The notes beneath the pieces are model-generated. The model was given only the letters and a program-made list of their open reading frames with translations. It ran no database searches and was not told where the DNA came from. Shown piece by piece: positions 10,341-43,517 of a stretch of DNA of 64,000 nt. The stretch is from NCBI RefSeq assembly GCF_900100715.1, contig NZ_FNCA01000001.1, positions 1 to 64,000 on the forward strand. The letters run 5' to 3'. Both the position numbers and the translations under genes were made by a program. Numbering within the stretch: position 1 is the stretch's first letter; the number at the start of each line of letters is the position of its first letter. The stretch is from Methanolobus vulcani (GTDB lineage: Archaea; Halobacteriota; Methanosarcinia; Methanosarcinales; Methanosarcinaceae).

Positions 10341-11330
10341 TTATTTATATCTGTTCTTGCGGAATCCTATGAAAATCGCACCGAGACATAATACACCAAG
10401 AACAGCACCCATCACACCAAGTTCTGGAAGCTTGTTCTGTACATCGGATGATGATTTATTTTCTAATATATAACCATCCACTTCGCTTGAACTTGTGTCA
10501 CTTTCAGAGCTTGCAGAAGTCTCATCAGGAGTAGATGCCATTGTATTGACTTCGTCCCCAACACCAGAAGATGTTTTATCGTCACTATTACTAAGAGACT
10601 CAGCAGGAACTATTTGAAGAGTGCCCGTATTACTGCTACTTTTCACTGTTGAAGAAGAACTAGAAGAAGGCGAAGAACTGCTGGAACTATCACTATTACT
10701 CGAATCATCAGTAATTCCTAAAGATACCTGATGAATCTGTCCGCCTACATTGAGAGTGAACTCACCCTCCGGCATGTTTTCTGTTTTATATGCATATTGG
10801 AAATTACCATCAGAATCTGCATTAATAGAACCTTTTCCTCCAAATGTTAATGTGACCTCATCACTTGATGATGTGCCACTTAATCCTATATCATATGTGC
10901 CACTTGTTATTTTGCTAGTTCCAAAAGTAGCAATCCCATTATTTACTGTAACAGGAAGCGACGGCAATCCCTGACCCATAACATAAAGAGTTATATCTAG
11001 ACTATCAACACCTTCAGCTCTTAAACTAAATGATTCAGAGCCTTCAGGAATAGTAATTTTTCCAATTCTATACTCATAATTTCCATTTGAAACAGATTGG
11101 ATCTTTTCAAAGTCTATAGATACAGATATCTCTTCGTTAGGAGATGCTTTTCCAGATACAGTCACTATATCTCCAGGAGCTGGATTCTCTGGAGAGATTG
11201 CAATTTCAGTTACTTCTGCTAAAGCTGTTGCAGTCATCAACAATAAAGCAGTACCTAGAATCAGTAAGAAGAATGAACTTTTTTTAATGAAGCCTGTTGA
11301 ACTGTTAAACAGGCTTTTTTTATGAACCAT
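10341..11330 (-). CDS. secreted, membrane-anchored surface protein with Ser-rich stalk
   Basis: The 329-residue protein has an N-terminal signal sequence (hydrophobic about 18-38, ending ATALAEV), then two beta-rich regions; the first reads like a small adhesion module (NPAPGDIVTVSGKASPNE). A Ser/Thr/Asp-rich stalk follows (about 205-295, with a run of Ser), then LPELGVMGAVLGVLCLGAIF and a basic tail RKNRYK. This signal-stalk-helix-basic-tail design is that of archaeal S-layer-associated or sortase-processed proteins. The LPELG start of the anchor is reminiscent of PEF- or LPXTG-type signals, but is not a clear match. Ligand and function are unknown. Confidence 0.75.
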   Translation of the reverse strand: MVHKKSLFNSSTGFIKKSSFFLLILGTALLLMTATALAEVTEIAISPENPAPGDIVTVSGKASPNEEISVSIDFEKIQSVSNGNYEYRIGKITIPEGSESFSLRAEGVDSLDITLYVMGQGLPSLPVTVNNGIATFGTSKITSGTYDIGLSGTSSSDEVTLTFGGKGSINADSDGNFQYAYKTENMPEGEFTLNVGGQIHQVSLGITDDSSNSDSSSSSSPSSSSSSTVKSSSNTGTLQIVPAESLSNSDDKTSSGVGDEVNTMASTPDETSASSESDTSSSEVDGYILENKSSSDVQNKLPELGVMGAVLGVLCLGAIFIGFRKNRYK

Positions 11331-37491: not shown

Positions 37492-38196
37492 TTACCGTAT
37501 TCTTTCAAACAGTGGCAGTTCGTCAGGATGATAACCTTCCCTCAGGAAATAGTTCTTGAACTTTCCACTGGTCTCAACTTCAAGACACTCTATGTCTTCA
37601 AGTGTTTTTATATGGGAAGTCACCGCACCTTTGGATAGACCGAGTTTCTCACAAAGTTCCATATTAGTTATTCCCGGATGATCATAGATCATGCGGCAGA
37701 CCTTTTTACAGGTAGCACCAGGCAGATGAGGTTCAATACGTTTGTGATTCTTATTCCACAAAGCACTCTCGTTCCTGAACAGGCTCACATAGTTCCCGTT
37801 CCTGAACATAAGGATCTTGCCCGCATCCTTAAGATTGATCACATGATATCGCACAGTCCCACGCTTGATACCAAGGTCGCTTTCTATCATATTGACCGTG
37901 CTGCCAGGATTTTTTTTAATGAAATTAAGTATTCTCTGACGATTCTCATTATTGGGGTCTTTTTTAGCCCATGCTGTGAGTAAAGCTACGATTTTCCAGC
38001 CCAGGCCCATGATAATAAATCCCAATGCTACTATTTTTAGCTTAAATGAAAGGTCCCAGAAAGATATAATTTCCTGTGAGCCATAAGAGACAGAAGATTC
38101 AGATGTAACATTATGAAAAACAACAGAGTTATCGTTACCATAACAATAAGGTACAAAAAAAAGTAAAATGATAAATAGTAAAAATATTTTATTCAT
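37492..38196 (-). CDS. membrane-anchored transcription regulator with two winged-helix domains
   Basis: The 234-residue protein has a hydrophobic N terminus that looks like a signal sequence (1-20), a short exported segment (to about 45), a membrane helix (about 52-72, IVALGFIIMGLGWKIVALLT), and then two winged helix-turn-helix domains: RILNFIKKNPGSTVNMIESD and, further on, MIYDHPGITNMELCEKLGLS. Such one-component regulators with an exported tip are common in Methanosarcinaceae. The gene starts 19 bases after the stop of the secreted-protein gene, so the two may form a signal-and-regulator pair. Target genes are unknown; hcp and its palindromic promoter are next door. Confidence 0.8.
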   Translation of the reverse strand: MNKIFLLFIILLFFVPYCYGNDNSVVFHNVTSESSVSYGSQEIISFWDLSFKLKIVALGFIIMGLGWKIVALLTAWAKKDPNNENRQRILNFIKKNPGSTVNMIESDLGIKRGTVRYHVINLKDAGKILMFRNGNYVSLFRNESALWNKNHKRIEPHLPGATCKKVCRMIYDHPGITNMELCEKLGLSKGAVTSHIKTLEDIECLEVETSGKFKNYFLREGYHPDELPLFERIR

Positions 38197-38215: not shown

Positions 38216-38632
38216 TCATATAGAATAATCTTCTGTTCCGGCCACTGAATAGCCATAAACTGCAAGACTCCAAGTTCCTTGTTGAAGACCGTTAGAATTG
38301 TATATAGTCACTAAAGTTCTACCATTTATACGACCATCAGCAGAATCATAATACACACCTACAAGATTATCATTTGGATCATAAACATAAAGTTTTAGTG
38401 AATCACTTCTATCTCCCCAATTTAAATCGATTGTCATTGAATTTGTAGATGTATATAAGGGATAACCATGCCAATTAGTTTGACCCTGAGTAATTGTGTA
38501 TCCTACAGACAATATTCCAATGTCACCATTAGAACCTGATGAGACTGCGTCGATTGCTGTTTCAGATGATTTTGCTCCTGCGACGGAAACGCAGAGCAAA
38601 AATACGAGAAATGCTATTGCTATTCTTTTCAT
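38216..38632 (-). CDS. secreted protein with beta-sandwich (PPC-like) domain
   Basis: The 138-residue protein begins at ATG 38632 (MKRIAIAFLVFLLCVSVAGA), a clear signal peptide, because GGAG lies seven bases upstream. The mature part has MTIDLNWGDRSDSLKLYVYD and YDSADGRINGRTLVTIYN, then GTWSLAVYGY, which resembles the PPC or pre-peptidase C-terminal fold that binds and folds on surfaces. It sits 19 bases before a membrane-anchored winged-helix regulator, so the two may be co-expressed. It is preceded by a promoter carrying a 15-base element also found in front of a candidate RNA. Confidence 0.8.
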   Translation of the reverse strand: MKRIAIAFLVFLLCVSVAGAKSSETAIDAVSSGSNGDIGILSVGYTITQGQTNWHGYPLYTSTNSMTIDLNWGDRSDSLKLYVYDPNDNLVGVYYDSADGRINGRTLVTIYNSNGLQQGTWSLAVYGYSVAGTEDYSI

Positions 38633-38684
38633 GTTTGTACTCCTACTAGCTTTCACTAGTTATTCAAAAAGATGAAAAAAACTA

Positions 38685-38715
38685 GTATATAACTTTTCTA
38701 GCCATCGTTTAAACT
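38685..38715 (-). promoter_or_regulatory. promoter of the secreted-protein gene with element copy 1
   Basis: Minus strand: AGTTTAAACGATGGC (38715-38701), eight bases, then the TATA box TTATATAC (38692-38685). The predicted start site is near 38663, leaving a leader of about 30 bases. The 15-base element is repeated exactly at 38892-38906. Confidence 0.6.
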
Positions 38716-38854
38716 AAAAAAAAGTGATGCTAAGAAGGAATTTTATTGTGGAGTTGGCCCTTGTTTCAAGTGGAATGAGGGAGTGAGAGGACATAAAAAT
38801 GTCCTCCGCACATCCCTCAATTTCCGTGCAGGTTTGTGCTGGTTGGGTACAAAC
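38716..38854 (-). ncRNA. candidate structured RNA of about 139 nt
   Basis: No protein frame fits. Reading the minus strand from the start site predicted by TATA-like sequence at 38882-38873, the RNA opens with GUUUGU/ACAAAC (38854-38849 with 38837-38832). A long hairpin follows: GGAA/TTCC (822-825 with 772-775 in the 38,000s), TCCCTC/GAGGGA (813-818 with 777-782), an asymmetric internal loop, and TGTCCTC/GAGGACA (800-806 with 787-793) with a six-base loop. A small CTTG/CAAG hairpin is at 38760-38770. It ends in eight Ts (38723-38716). Function unknown; H/ACA-type pocket not established. Confidence 0.5.
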
Positions 38855-38872
38855 AATTCAAAGAAATCAGAA

Positions 38873-38906
38873 TTATAATAAAACCATTATGGCCATCGTT
38901 TAAACT
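38873..38906 (-). promoter_or_regulatory. promoter of the candidate RNA with element copy 2
   Basis: Minus strand: AGTTTAAACGATGGC (38906-38892), about ten bases, then the AT-rich TTATTATAAT (38881-38872). This repeats the arrangement at 38685-38715. The palindromic core is GTTTAAAC. Confidence 0.5.
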
Positions 38907-39235
38907 GAAATCCAAGCAACTTGAATGAAAGATGGCAATATTCATTTTAATTATGAGTAAAGTGTTAAAAATTGTAAAGAAATGCTCCCTTTAATCCATC
39001 ATGTTCTAATCCGGATACTAGCCCGTCTTTGCCGAATTATGAATTTGTCGCTACTATCCTGCAATCATAATATTGGATCAAGGTCATTCAGCAAACCGTA
39101 CATTTCTTTCTTAGTTATTCTAAGTATCTGTTTTTCTTAATTTAAGTTCAAAAAGTATAAGGTTGTGAGCTATTCATAATTAACTTAGGAAACAATTTCT
39201 GAATAAAGTATTTAAAAATAGGAGCGGGGGTTTAG
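38907..39235. other. non-coding stretch before the beta-helix gene
   Basis: It contains the promoter of the plus-strand gene (TATA-like GTATTTAAAAATA at about 39208-39220, then GGAGCGGGGG before the ATG). On the minus strand 39065-39136 reads as a 23-residue fragment EKQILRITKKEMYGLLNDLD... with a stop, without start codon context, possibly a decayed gene end. Confidence 0.4.
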
Positions 39236-40807
39236 ATGACACTTACCAGAGTTAATATGATCAGGATTGCAGTATCTTTCTTTTGCCTTATGTTCTTACT
39301 TATCGGAGGAACTACTGCATCTTCGTTCATTTTTGTGAACAACAGTACTGGCCCGGTGGCCGATTATACATCTATACAGCAAGCCATAGATAATGCCAGT
39401 AATGAAGATGTGATAATACTTCATCCTGGCATTTATCATGAGAATATTGATGTAGACAAACAAATAAGTATCAGATCAGTAGGAAATCAGAATGATACGA
39501 TTATAATAGCCAAAAATCAAACAGATAATGTATTTTATGTTAATTCCGACAACGTTTCTATTGAAGGCCTGACCATAGAGGGAGCTACAAGCGCCATCTG
39601 GGAAAACAGAATTGCCGGTATATTTTTAGATTCATCGGATAACTGCAACATCACAAACAATAGATTAACCGGAAACTATGAAGGCGTGATCCTTCATGAA
39701 TCTAATAATAATATTATCAAAACAAATAAGATATTCAAGAATATAAACGGTAATGGAATATCTCTTCATAACTCCGACCTGAATACACTGAATTCTAATA
39801 TTATCAACTCGAACTGGTGGTCAGGTATTTACCTGAGTTCCTCGGATTTCAATGAGATCAGTGGCAACCAGATTAAATCTAATCTGGAAGGAATCAACCT
39901 TTACAGATCAAAGAATAACAAATTGAACAACAATATTGCCAATTCAAATGGTCTTTATGGAATTGTCCTTGATACCGATTCGAACAACAATGAATTGAAC
40001 ATGAATACAGCAAACCTGAATAAGAATTCCGGAATATATTTAAAATATTCAAGTTCAAACACTATGGCAGACAATGTTGCAGATTCCAATTACTACCAGG
40101 GAATACTAATGAAGTTTTCATCCGGAAATAAAATAATTAATAATTCTGCATCAGAGAACATGCCTGAATCATCATCTGATGAAGATTCAGTTTCAACTTT
40201 CGGGATATATCTCACTAATTGTGATGAAAATGAAATTATCGGGAACCTGCTATACCTAAACAAGGACGTAGGAATAGGTATTCAGGAGTCTTCACAGAAT
40301 TACATAAACGGGAACATACTTCTCAGTACTTCAACAGGCTTATCTGTATCTTATTCAAATGGAAATTTAATTTACGATAATTATTTCCATAATCCTGTCA
40401 ATGTCGATTTCACCGGCTTGAACTTTGGTAACCAGTGGAATACCAGTCTTAAAGAGGAAGTTAACATTCTGAATGGTGACTTCAGAGGTGGTAATTTCTG
40501 GTCTGATCCGTATTGTAAAGGATATAGTCAGCTTTGTGAAGACCTGGACCTGAACGGAATATGTGATCTCCCCTACCAGATAAACGATGAAAATACAGAC
40601 TTTTTGCCTCTCTACGATCCCACTACTTCATGGAAAGGTGATTATGACTATGATGAAGATGTAGATTTTGATGACTTTGTTGAATTTGCAGCCTGCTATA
40701 ATTCTATGATAGGTCAAAACAATTATCAACGTATATTTGATTTTGAAGGTGATTGTGACGTTGATTTTGATGACTTTGTTGAATTTGCAGGCAATTATCA
40801 GAAATAA
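39236..40807 (+). CDS. secreted NosD-like beta-helix protein with dockerin-like tail
   Basis: The 523-residue protein has a signal peptide (about 5-30) followed by a right-handed parallel beta-helix: repeated N-x-I/L-x-x-N units such as NCNITNNRLTGNYEGVILHE and NSDLNTLNSNIINSNWWSGI, the NosD/CASH pattern found in carbohydrate-binding or -cleaving surface proteins. At the C terminus are two EF-hand-like repeats, YDEDVDFDDFVEFA and DCDVDFDDFVEFA, which resemble dockerin or calcium-binding repeats. The gene has its own TATA box and a G-rich Shine-Dalgarno site. It is probably exported and Ca-binding; ligand unknown. Confidence 0.85.
   Translation: MTLTRVNMIRIAVSFFCLMFLLIGGTTASSFIFVNNSTGPVADYTSIQQAIDNASNEDVIILHPGIYHENIDVDKQISIRSVGNQNDTIIIAKNQTDNVFYVNSDNVSIEGLTIEGATSAIWENRIAGIFLDSSDNCNITNNRLTGNYEGVILHESNNNIIKTNKIFKNINGNGISLHNSDLNTLNSNIINSNWWSGIYLSSSDFNEISGNQIKSNLEGINLYRSKNNKLNNNIANSNGLYGIVLDTDSNNNELNMNTANLNKNSGIYLKYSSSNTMADNVADSNYYQGILMKFSSGNKIINNSASENMPESSSDEDSVSTFGIYLTNCDENEIIGNLLYLNKDVGIGIQESSQNYINGNILLSTSTGLSVSYSNGNLIYDNYFHNPVNVDFTGLNFGNQWNTSLKEEVNILNGDFRGGNFWSDPYCKGYSQLCEDLDLNGICDLPYQINDENTDFLPLYDPTTSWKGDYDYDEDVDFDDFVEFAACYNSMIGQNNYQRIFDFEGDCDVDFDDFVEFAGNYQK
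40664..40790 (+). repeat. 28-base direct repeat encoding the dockerin-like motifs
   Basis: The same 28 bases, starting GATTTTGATGACTTTG and ending GAATTTGCAG, occur at 40664-40691 and 40763-40790, 99 bases apart, in the same reading frame. This nucleotide identity points to a recent duplication or gene conversion. Confidence 0.9.
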
Positions 40808-41162: not shown

Positions 41163-43517
41163 ATGCGAATCGGAGTTTATATCTGCCATTGCGGACTGAA
41201 TATCGCACATACAATCAACGTAGAGTCACTCAGAGATAAGGTCAGTGAATTAAAAGACGTTGCTCTGGTCAAGGACATACAGTTCATGTGTTCCGATTCG
41301 GGACAGGATTCCATAGTTCAGGATATAACCGACCTTGATCTTAATCACATACTTGTTGCAGCCTGTTCTCCTCATCTGCATGAGCAGACCTTCAAAAGAG
41401 TGCTTGAAAAAGCAGGCCTCAATCCTTTCATGCTGGAAATGGTCAATATCCGCGAGCAATGTTCCTGGGTTCACATGGACAATCCGCAGATGGCAACCCA
41501 GAAGGCTTTCGATCTTATCAGAATGGGAATCGCCAGACTCAAACTACTGGACCCATTACAGCTCAAAAAAATCCCCGCAAAAAAAGATGTAATGGTAATT
41601 GGAGGAGGTGTAGCTGGAATTGAAGCCGCTCTCACACTGGCAAACTCCGGTCATCATGTAATAATGGTCGAAAAAGAACCCACCATCGGCGGAAAGATGG
41701 CACTTCTCAATGAAGTATTCCCGACCAATGACTGTTCTATCTGTGTACTTGCTCCCAAGATGACGGATGTGAATCAGCATCCGAACATCGACCTTATAAC
41801 ACTTGCAGAAGTAACCGAAGTAAGCGGCCCTGTAGGTAATTTTAACGTAACAGTAACCAGACAGCCAAGGTATATTGACGAAGACAAATGCAAAGGCTGC
41901 GTGGATGAATGCGGACGTGTATGTCCCGTAGAAGTTCCAAACCGATTCGATTCCGGACTGGGAAAAACTAAAGCCATCAACATGCCAATTCCACAGGCAG
42001 TTCCTCAGGTAGTCTATATTGATAATGAATACTGCGTGGGTTGCGGACTCTGCAAACTGGCATGTCCTGCTGATGCTATTGACTATCACCAGAAAGAAGA
42101 GAAAATAGAACTCACCGTTGGAGCAATCATACTTTCAACTGGCTACAGTCATTTCGATGCAAGCAGGAAACCAGAATATGGTTATGGAACCTATCCAGAT
42201 GTAATCACAAATATGGAAATGGAACGCCTGCTTAACGCTGCTGGCCCCACAAAAGGCAGAGTTCTTTCACCTTCAACACTCAAGGTTCCTGAAAAAGTAT
42301 CATTCATCCAGTGTGTTGGTTCAAGGGATGAACAGGTTGGAAATCCATACTGTTCAAGGGTATGCTGCATGTCCAGTATGAAGAATGCACAGTTGCTCAA
42401 GGAAAGATACCCTGATGTTGATATTACAATTCATTACATTGATGTCCGTGCATCCGGTGAGATGTACGAGGAATACTACATCCGCAGCCAGGAAATGGGA
42501 ATCAATTTCACTCGTGGAAAGGTTGGAGAGATTCTTCAGGATACGGATGGAAAACTGAAACTGCGTTACGAGGACACTTTAAGCAGCGAACTGTACGAAG
42601 AACCCACAGACCTTGTTGTCCTTGCAACTGGTATGGAAAACGTCAAAGATGCTGACACGATTTCCAGAGTTCTAAACCTTACAAGACGTACAGACCGTTT
42701 CTTCTCCATCGCCCACCCGAAGATGAGACCTGTAGATTCCCATGTAAAAGGAATATACATAGCAGGATGTGCATCCGGTCCTAAAGAAATACAGGTATCC
42801 ATTGCCCAGGGAAGTGGAGCAGCAGCCAAGGCAATGCAGTTGCTTTCAAAGGGAGAGCTTGAGATGGACCCGCTCAGTGCCCATGTGAATCCTGATAAGT
42901 GCATTGGATGTGGAATCTGTGCTGACACCTGCAAATTCAATAAGATAACAATGATCGACCGCAAAGCTGTGGTTGACGAACTTTCATGCATGGGATGCGG
43001 TGCTTGTAGTGCATCATGTCCTGCTGATGCCATATGGATGAGAAACAGCACAGATGCCCAGATAATAGCCCAGATACATGCTGCAACCGAAGTTAAATCC
43101 GAATCGCCACTTATCGTTGCTTTTCTCTGCAACTGGTGCAGCTACACATGTGCTGACCTTGCAGGAACTTCCAGGATACAGTATCCGACAAATATCCGTG
43201 TTATCCGCGTCATGTGTGCAGGGCGTGTTGACCCATCCTTTGTGCTTGAAGCACTGGAACATGGTGCAGACGGAGTGCTAGTAGCTGGTTGTCGTCTCGG
43301 AGAGTGTCACTACACTTTTGCGAACTATAATGCAAAACAAAGGATGGAAGCTTTAAAAGAAGTCCTTGCAGATGTCGGAATTGACCCCGGACGTCTCAGT
43401 GTTGAATGGATATCGGCATCAGAAGGTGAAAGGTTCGCAAATTCCATCGAAGGCTTTGTTGATTACCTGAAGAAGATCGGCCCAATAGGTTCCGAACTCA
43501 GGGAGGGTGAACAATGA
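41163..43517 (+). CDS. hdrA: heterodisulfide reductase subunit A fused to MvhD (HdrA2 type)
   Basis: HdrA is the flavin subunit where electron bifurcation takes place. The 784-residue protein begins with the HdrA N-terminal domain (RIGVYICHCGLNIA), a FAD-binding region from about 135 (VMVIGGGVAGIEAAL), two inserted ferredoxin motifs (CKGCVDECGRVCP, CVGCGLCKLACP, about 243-303) and two more later (CIGCGICADTC, CMGCGACSASCP, about 580-620). Residues about 655-784 are an MvhD domain (FLCNWCSYTCADLAG, CRLGECHY) with a [2Fe-2S] site, as in M. acetivorans HdrA2. It overlaps the polyferredoxin gene by four bases. HdrB and HdrC are not encoded nearby. Confidence 0.93.
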   Translation: MRIGVYICHCGLNIAHTINVESLRDKVSELKDVALVKDIQFMCSDSGQDSIVQDITDLDLNHILVAACSPHLHEQTFKRVLEKAGLNPFMLEMVNIREQCSWVHMDNPQMATQKAFDLIRMGIARLKLLDPLQLKKIPAKKDVMVIGGGVAGIEAALTLANSGHHVIMVEKEPTIGGKMALLNEVFPTNDCSICVLAPKMTDVNQHPNIDLITLAEVTEVSGPVGNFNVTVTRQPRYIDEDKCKGCVDECGRVCPVEVPNRFDSGLGKTKAINMPIPQAVPQVVYIDNEYCVGCGLCKLACPADAIDYHQKEEKIELTVGAIILSTGYSHFDASRKPEYGYGTYPDVITNMEMERLLNAAGPTKGRVLSPSTLKVPEKVSFIQCVGSRDEQVGNPYCSRVCCMSSMKNAQLLKERYPDVDITIHYIDVRASGEMYEEYYIRSQEMGINFTRGKVGEILQDTDGKLKLRYEDTLSSELYEEPTDLVVLATGMENVKDADTISRVLNLTRRTDRFFSIAHPKMRPVDSHVKGIYIAGCASGPKEIQVSIAQGSGAAAKAMQLLSKGELEMDPLSAHVNPDKCIGCGICADTCKFNKITMIDRKAVVDELSCMGCGACSASCPADAIWMRNSTDAQIIAQIHAATEVKSESPLIVAFLCNWCSYTCADLAGTSRIQYPTNIRVIRVMCAGRVDPSFVLEALEHGADGVLVAGCRLGECHYTFANYNAKQRMEALKEVLADVGIDPGRLSVEWISASEGERFANSIEGFVDYLKKIGPIGSELREGEQ

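Follow-up and report, generated by a model that had tools for sequence, protein, structure and literature searches.

A predicted Methanolobus small RNA gene that shares a promoter motif with the adjacent surface-protein and regulator operon

The 64,000-nt stretch of the Methanolobus vulcani genome analyzed here (the window) very probably contains a real, previously uncatalogued small noncoding RNA gene of Methanolobus, which is called sRNA-A below and whose transcription is predicted from sequence. That it is an independent structured RNA gene is held with high confidence. Shared control of sRNA-A and the operon downstream of it, which encodes a surface protein and a regulator, is well supported at the sequence level. 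Targeting and repression of that operon by sRNA-A is a supported lead, not a result. The features concerned are the following.

38884-38907 (-): upstream regulatory motif of the sRNA promoter, CAGTTTAAACGATGGCCATAATGG; near-invariant in 11 genomes
38876-38883 (-): TATA box of the sRNA promoter, TTTTATTA; conserved in position and sequence
38716-38859 (-): predicted sRNA-A gene; start predicted at 38854-38859; covariance-model match of 163.6 bits; fold z = -4.6
38832-38854 (-): hairpin 1, GUUUGU-ACCCAACCAGC-ACAAAC; conserved; 5' arm is the proposed pairing domain, complementary to the operon ribosome-binding site (RBS)
38772-38825 (-): long nested hairpin of 54 nt with an asymmetric internal loop; conserved, with three pairs changed on both sides
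38760-38770 (-): small triloop hairpin, CTTG-AAA-CAAG; not conserved (variable alignment columns)
38737-38754 (-): linker, ACTCCACAATAAAATTCC; mostly unpaired and conserved in the alignment and in the homologue folds
38716-38723 (-): predicted T8 terminator of sRNA-A; T-run present in 11/11 genomes
38684-38716 (-): operon promoter, motif TAGTTTAAACGATGGC before TATA box TTATATAC; same motif and same spacing as in the sRNA promoter
38630-38643 (-): operon RBS and start, GGAGTACAAACATG; proposed sRNA-A target
38216-38632 (-): gene for a 138-aa secreted or surface protein; no Pfam family
37492-38196 (-): gene for a 234-aa membrane-anchored regulator with two winged-HTH domains (HTH_24, 2.7e-16; HTH_HVO_0163_N, 1.3e-12)

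Position, conservation, and structure of sRNA-A

The original prediction described a 139-nt RNA at 38716-38854 on the minus strand, starting at about 38854 behind a TATA-like box and ending in eight Ts. The sequence, the coordinates, and the box are borne out, with TTTTATTA predicting a start near 38854-38859. The proposed start and length were close, but the conserved unit begins with GAATTG at 38859, giving an RNA of about 139-144 nt; the minus strand of 38716-38859 reads GAATTGTTTGTACCCAACCAGCACAAACC...ACTTTTTTTT. Upstream, CAGTTTAAACGATGGCCATAATGG and TTTTATTA form a BRE/TATA-like arrangement of the archaeal promoter type, and the TATA box ends 17-22 nt from the candidate starts at 38859-38854. 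The distance between promoter and start in Methanolobus psychrophilus is about 19-22 nt (PMC5378194). A sigma-70 and terminator scan of the region was set aside as inapplicable because the host is an archaeon. Because the plus strand of the region also folds well (z = -3.6), the strand assignment relies on the promoter and the T-run instead of the fold.

Searching by DNA sequence located the unit in 11 genomes, all of one genus. In the covariance-model search for homologues that had been called for, these same 11 of the 27 Methanolobus genomes each gave a single strong match, whereas model R1 had no match at E <= 0.1 in any of the 85 other genomes of the family (Methanosarcinaceae outside Methanolobus). 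Carriers in an exact-pattern scan include the cultured species M. bombayensis and M. profundi along with a Methanolobus metagenome-assembled genome (MAG), the remaining matches being scattered single 17-base matches in unrelated bacteria. In every carrier (11/11), the single copy lies directly upstream of the surface-protein/regulator operon, which confirms the location first proposed. The unit is intergenic, and its TATA/BRE block, RNA body, and T-run are conserved together in the 11 genomes. This agrees with the earlier view of a stand-alone unit with its own promoter and with the T-run as its terminator; the operon likewise has a promoter of its own.

Pairwise identity averages 91% in the promoter and 93% over the RNA's first 47 nt, compared with 38% in the 40 nt preceding the promoter; the average for the entire RNA is 74%. 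The alignment thus indicates that the promoter and the 5' domain are under selection, since identity there is 91 to 93% versus 38% just upstream. A coding function was ruled out: indels of 1 to 2 nt and stop codons break all frames, which makes sRNA-A noncoding. No Rfam 15 family, whether riboswitch, guide RNA, SRP, RNase P, tmRNA, or other, was matched at either the gathering threshold or permissive ones, as anticipated by the failure to recognize a known family in the original prediction. The best subthreshold match was to mir-365, with 25.3 bits versus a cut-off of 62.

The 139-nt RNA folds with -38.8 kcal/mol, versus -24.2 kcal/mol (standard deviation, 3.2) for shuffled sequences, none of which (0/200) was as good; homologues folded singly gave z values of -1.2 to -5.2 versus shuffles. 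All three predicted hairpins are present in the window, but only hairpin 1 and the 54-nt hairpin are conserved, and both are retained in the RNAalifold consensus. The 3' part comprises, in order, the nonconserved triloop hairpin, the linker, and the T-run. Under the consensus structure, 96.8% of cells are paired, compared with 43 to 69% after sliding of one side, and in three pairs both partners have changed. This modest covariation is consistent with a conserved secondary structure. Hairpin 1 is almost invariant across homologues and so says little about covariation.

Proposed action on the operon RBS

According to the best explanation, whose prospects fall just short of even, sRNA-A is controlled together with the operon, pairs with the operon RBS, and lowers translation. 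An upstream site common to both, most likely bound by the operon's membrane-anchored winged-helix regulator or a paralogue, would provide the joint control. Conserved signals predict transcription from near 38854-38859 to the T8, yielding an RNA in which a weak 5' hairpin with a C-rich loop precedes a long hairpin and a linker that is unpaired. By covering GGAGUACAAACAUG, the stretch of the surface-protein/regulator mRNA that holds the RBS and start codon, the 5' domain UGUUUGUAC would lower translation and act as negative feedback on the regulator's own operon. Additional mRNAs may also be targets.

Within the 5' domain, UGUUUGUAC is perfectly complementary to GUACAAACA, which lies in the operon's RBS/start region; with a one-base bulge, the CC that follows UGUUUGUAC could also pair with GG. 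The 14-mer at the RBS occurs once in the window's genome with one mismatch allowed. The 9-nt pairing is found in 10 of the 11 genomes, which, being related, are not independent cases, with duplex energies of -16.8 to -19.7 kcal/mol. Shuffled targets pair as well in 1 to 6% of trials in nine of these ten genomes; in the tenth, G015, the figure is 24%, and the best duplex is not simply the RBS site. In 7/11 genomes, the RBS outranks all other sites within about 780 nt of operon mRNA as a partner for the 5' domain. Homologous surface-protein genes without an adjacent sRNA-A all lack that RBS (8/8), a comparison that includes same-genome paralogues and the G014 homologue, which has a motif promoter. 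In genome G023, the sRNA and the RBS have changed at different positions and the pairing is lost, and no compensatory changes between the 5' domain and the RBS were seen among the 11 genomes. The operon ranks 27th of 116 gene starts by raw duplex energy and is tied for second of about 118 by longest perfect match, and the RBS pairing must compete with hairpin 1. On balance, the case tips somewhat against the operon RBS being fully right as the specific target.

A serious competing explanation, to which about a third of our confidence goes, is that sRNA-A is an independent sRNA that acts on other, distant mRNAs or via a protein, through the linker ACUCCACAAUAAAAUUCC and the C-rich loop, and that the RBS match is coincidental. 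The conservation and mostly unpaired state of the linker fit such a role, as does the lack of a consistent site for it in the operon mRNA. A conserved element located after mtaB also contains the linker sequence AACTCCACAATAAAATTC in the same sense, a recurrence to be expected if the sequence is a shared motif for antisense pairing or protein binding, and G023 keeps sRNA-A without the RBS pairing. However, pattern searches and selected loci yielded no trans target, and conservation within the RNA is highest in the 5' domain, the part complementary to the adjacent RBS; homologous genes without sRNA-A do not have that RBS.

The motif shared with the downstream operon

Motif CAGTTTAAACGATGGCC precedes the TATA boxes of both sRNA-A and the operon. 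The sequence GTTTAAACGATGGC occurs exactly twice in the window, as perfect 15-bp direct repeats 191 bp apart that flank sRNA-A, one before the sRNA TATA box and one at equal spacing before the operon TATA box. This motif common to both units, like the sister unit found in other species (below), goes beyond the original prediction. Elsewhere in the window's genome, the motif is found at C5:17974, C5:16456, C18:97563, and C9:102730, and a regulator paralogue lies no more than about 2 kb away from three of these four sites. The motif is also present in relatives, and its sites, in this genome as in theirs, lie mostly before secreted-protein genes. The simplest reading of this arrangement is that the regulator family binds the motif, and such binding is predicted here.

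The position of the operon promoter directly after the T8 bears on a second, improbable alternative, in which the region is the first part of an alternative, long 5' leader belonging to the operon, transcribed from a second upstream promoter and acting in cis, with the T8 as a conditional terminator (attenuator). The common strand and the abutment of T8 and operon promoter would suit a leader, and M. psychrophilus often has two start sites with long 5' untranslated regions (UTRs) (PMC5378194). However, the operon's own promoter is conserved in 11/11 genomes, the T-run is retained with no evident alternative antiterminator pairing, and conservation peaks at the 5' end rather than around the terminator. 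It is very improbable that there is no transcript and that the direct repeats bound an operator region or a small DNA element, either mobile or duplicated: the repeats are perfect and the plus strand folds well too, but the spacing to the TATA box that follows is equal for both copies of GTTTAAACGATGGC, and each of the 11 genomes has one strong copy at one syntenic place, with no dispersed copies. Neither an element end nor a mobile repeat, named at the outset as grounds for refutation, was found, and a target-site duplication was rejected because the same spacing before two TATA boxes explains the repeats as promoter elements.

Two further observations concern the surroundings of sRNA-A. A short hairpin, ACTAGT-GAAA-GCTAGT (38644-38659, minus strand), lies directly before the operon's Shine-Dalgarno sequence; its version in G015 (L011) is TGCTAATT..AATTAGCA, in which the stem is kept with different bases. 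The divergent neighbor at 39236-40807 (plus strand) encodes a secreted NosD/right-handed beta-helix protein and is followed by an HdrA-like gene at 41163.

Related units and known archaeal sRNAs

A second, sRNA-like unit behind the same promoter, sRNA-B, is found 250 to 460 nt upstream in five genomes. It is about 85 nt long and contains GTTTTACCTTCCTG; an invariant unpaired 5' end, GTTTTACCTTCC, is followed by two hairpins and a T5. Diverged forms in three more genomes bring the total to eight (loci L109, L110, L111, L112, L113, L217, L118, and L306); the form in G019, a genome without sRNA-A, adjoins an hdrA-like gene. The window's own genome lacks sRNA-B. Of seven genomes, only one shows more similarity between the bodies of sRNA-A and sRNA-B than all of the shuffles do, so that the bodies are not clearly homologous although promoter and layout agree. 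As a target pattern, the sRNA-B seed gave match numbers close to those of a control pattern.

The same promoter motif is found ahead of secreted-protein genes with a conserved, structured 5' leader of about 170 nt, GUCACAU..GGGGUCCAA..CUUGAACCCC..GCCCUAAGGCAAGG, at these loci:

L105:5795-5962 (-)
L305:1266-1440 (+)
L107:3945-4112 and 10963-11135 (+)
L114:2517-2689 (+)
L115:1755-1925 (-)

Loci L105, L107, L114, and L115 had no match in Rfam. Alignment A2 of the leaders contains 45 predicted pairs, four of them with double changes, and the leader is a candidate cis-regulatory RNA. Genome G014, although without sRNA-A, also has two motif promoters separated by about 250 nt (L117:2846-3125, minus strand); the sequence between them can form hairpins and may be an unrelated RNA that occupies the equivalent position.

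The conserved element just after mtaB (methanol methyltransferase) is present in 22 of 27 Methanolobus genomes (L284; G000:C12:27178-27292) and has no match in Rfam. In this element, the stems GGCTTTACAG/CTGTAAAGCC and GCCAT/ATGGC enclose a loop rich in pyrimidines, CTACCTCCAACTCCACAACC, and the sRNA-A linker sequence is repeated in the sense strand of mtaB. Its match was rejected as a linker target, being a same-sense copy of the linker. The element is possibly a second sRNA or a 3'-UTR element.

By analogy, sRNA-A would work like sRNA162, sRNA154, and sRNA41 of Methanosarcina mazei. sRNA162 is likewise an intergenic methanogen sRNA with its own promoter and terminator. As is proposed for sRNA-A, it masks an RBS in a bicistronic mRNA that is encoded nearby; the RBS is that of a transcription-factor gene, and the masking is done by an unpaired stretch of sRNA162. 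It also has a second copy, sRNA171 (PMC3510493), much as eight Methanolobus genomes hold a sister-like unit. However, sRNA162 is longer (191 nt), overlaps the 5' UTR of MM2442 in antisense, and targets the ArsR-family gene MM2441 as second cistron, whereas sRNA-A is encoded ahead of its proposed target and in the same sense. The two families appear to be separate, judging from the model search of the 85 family genomes. sRNA154 and sRNA41 are structured intergenic sRNAs whose anti-RBS sequences repress translation, similar to the action proposed here, but they are linked to nitrogen status, and no promoter shared with an adjacent surface-protein/regulator operon is described for them (PMC5867862). 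No sequence relation of sRNA-A to either one was found.

Within the genus, PMC5378194 describes nine conserved intergenic sRNAs of M. psychrophilus that are induced by cold (8°C) and share a "cold box" motif upstream of their promoters. The likeness concerns the genus and the placing of a shared motif upstream of the promoters; the sRNA-A motif also precedes protein genes.

It is possible, though on the doubtful side, that these units form one circuit, in which a membrane-anchored winged-helix regulator, through one operator, controls surface and secreted-protein genes, some with a structured leader, together with one or both of the tandem sRNAs A and B, which would mask RBSs including that of the regulator's own operon. 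As far as we know, such a mixed protein-RNA circuit would be new for archaea. Hundreds of archaeal sRNAs are known from transcriptome sequencing, with targets unknown for all but a few (PMC5867862). For sRNA-A, comparative genomics gives candidates for both the controlling factor, through the shared motif, and the target, through a short and mutable RBS pairing, so that an archaeal regulator-sRNA feedback loop becomes directly testable in cultured Methanolobus species.
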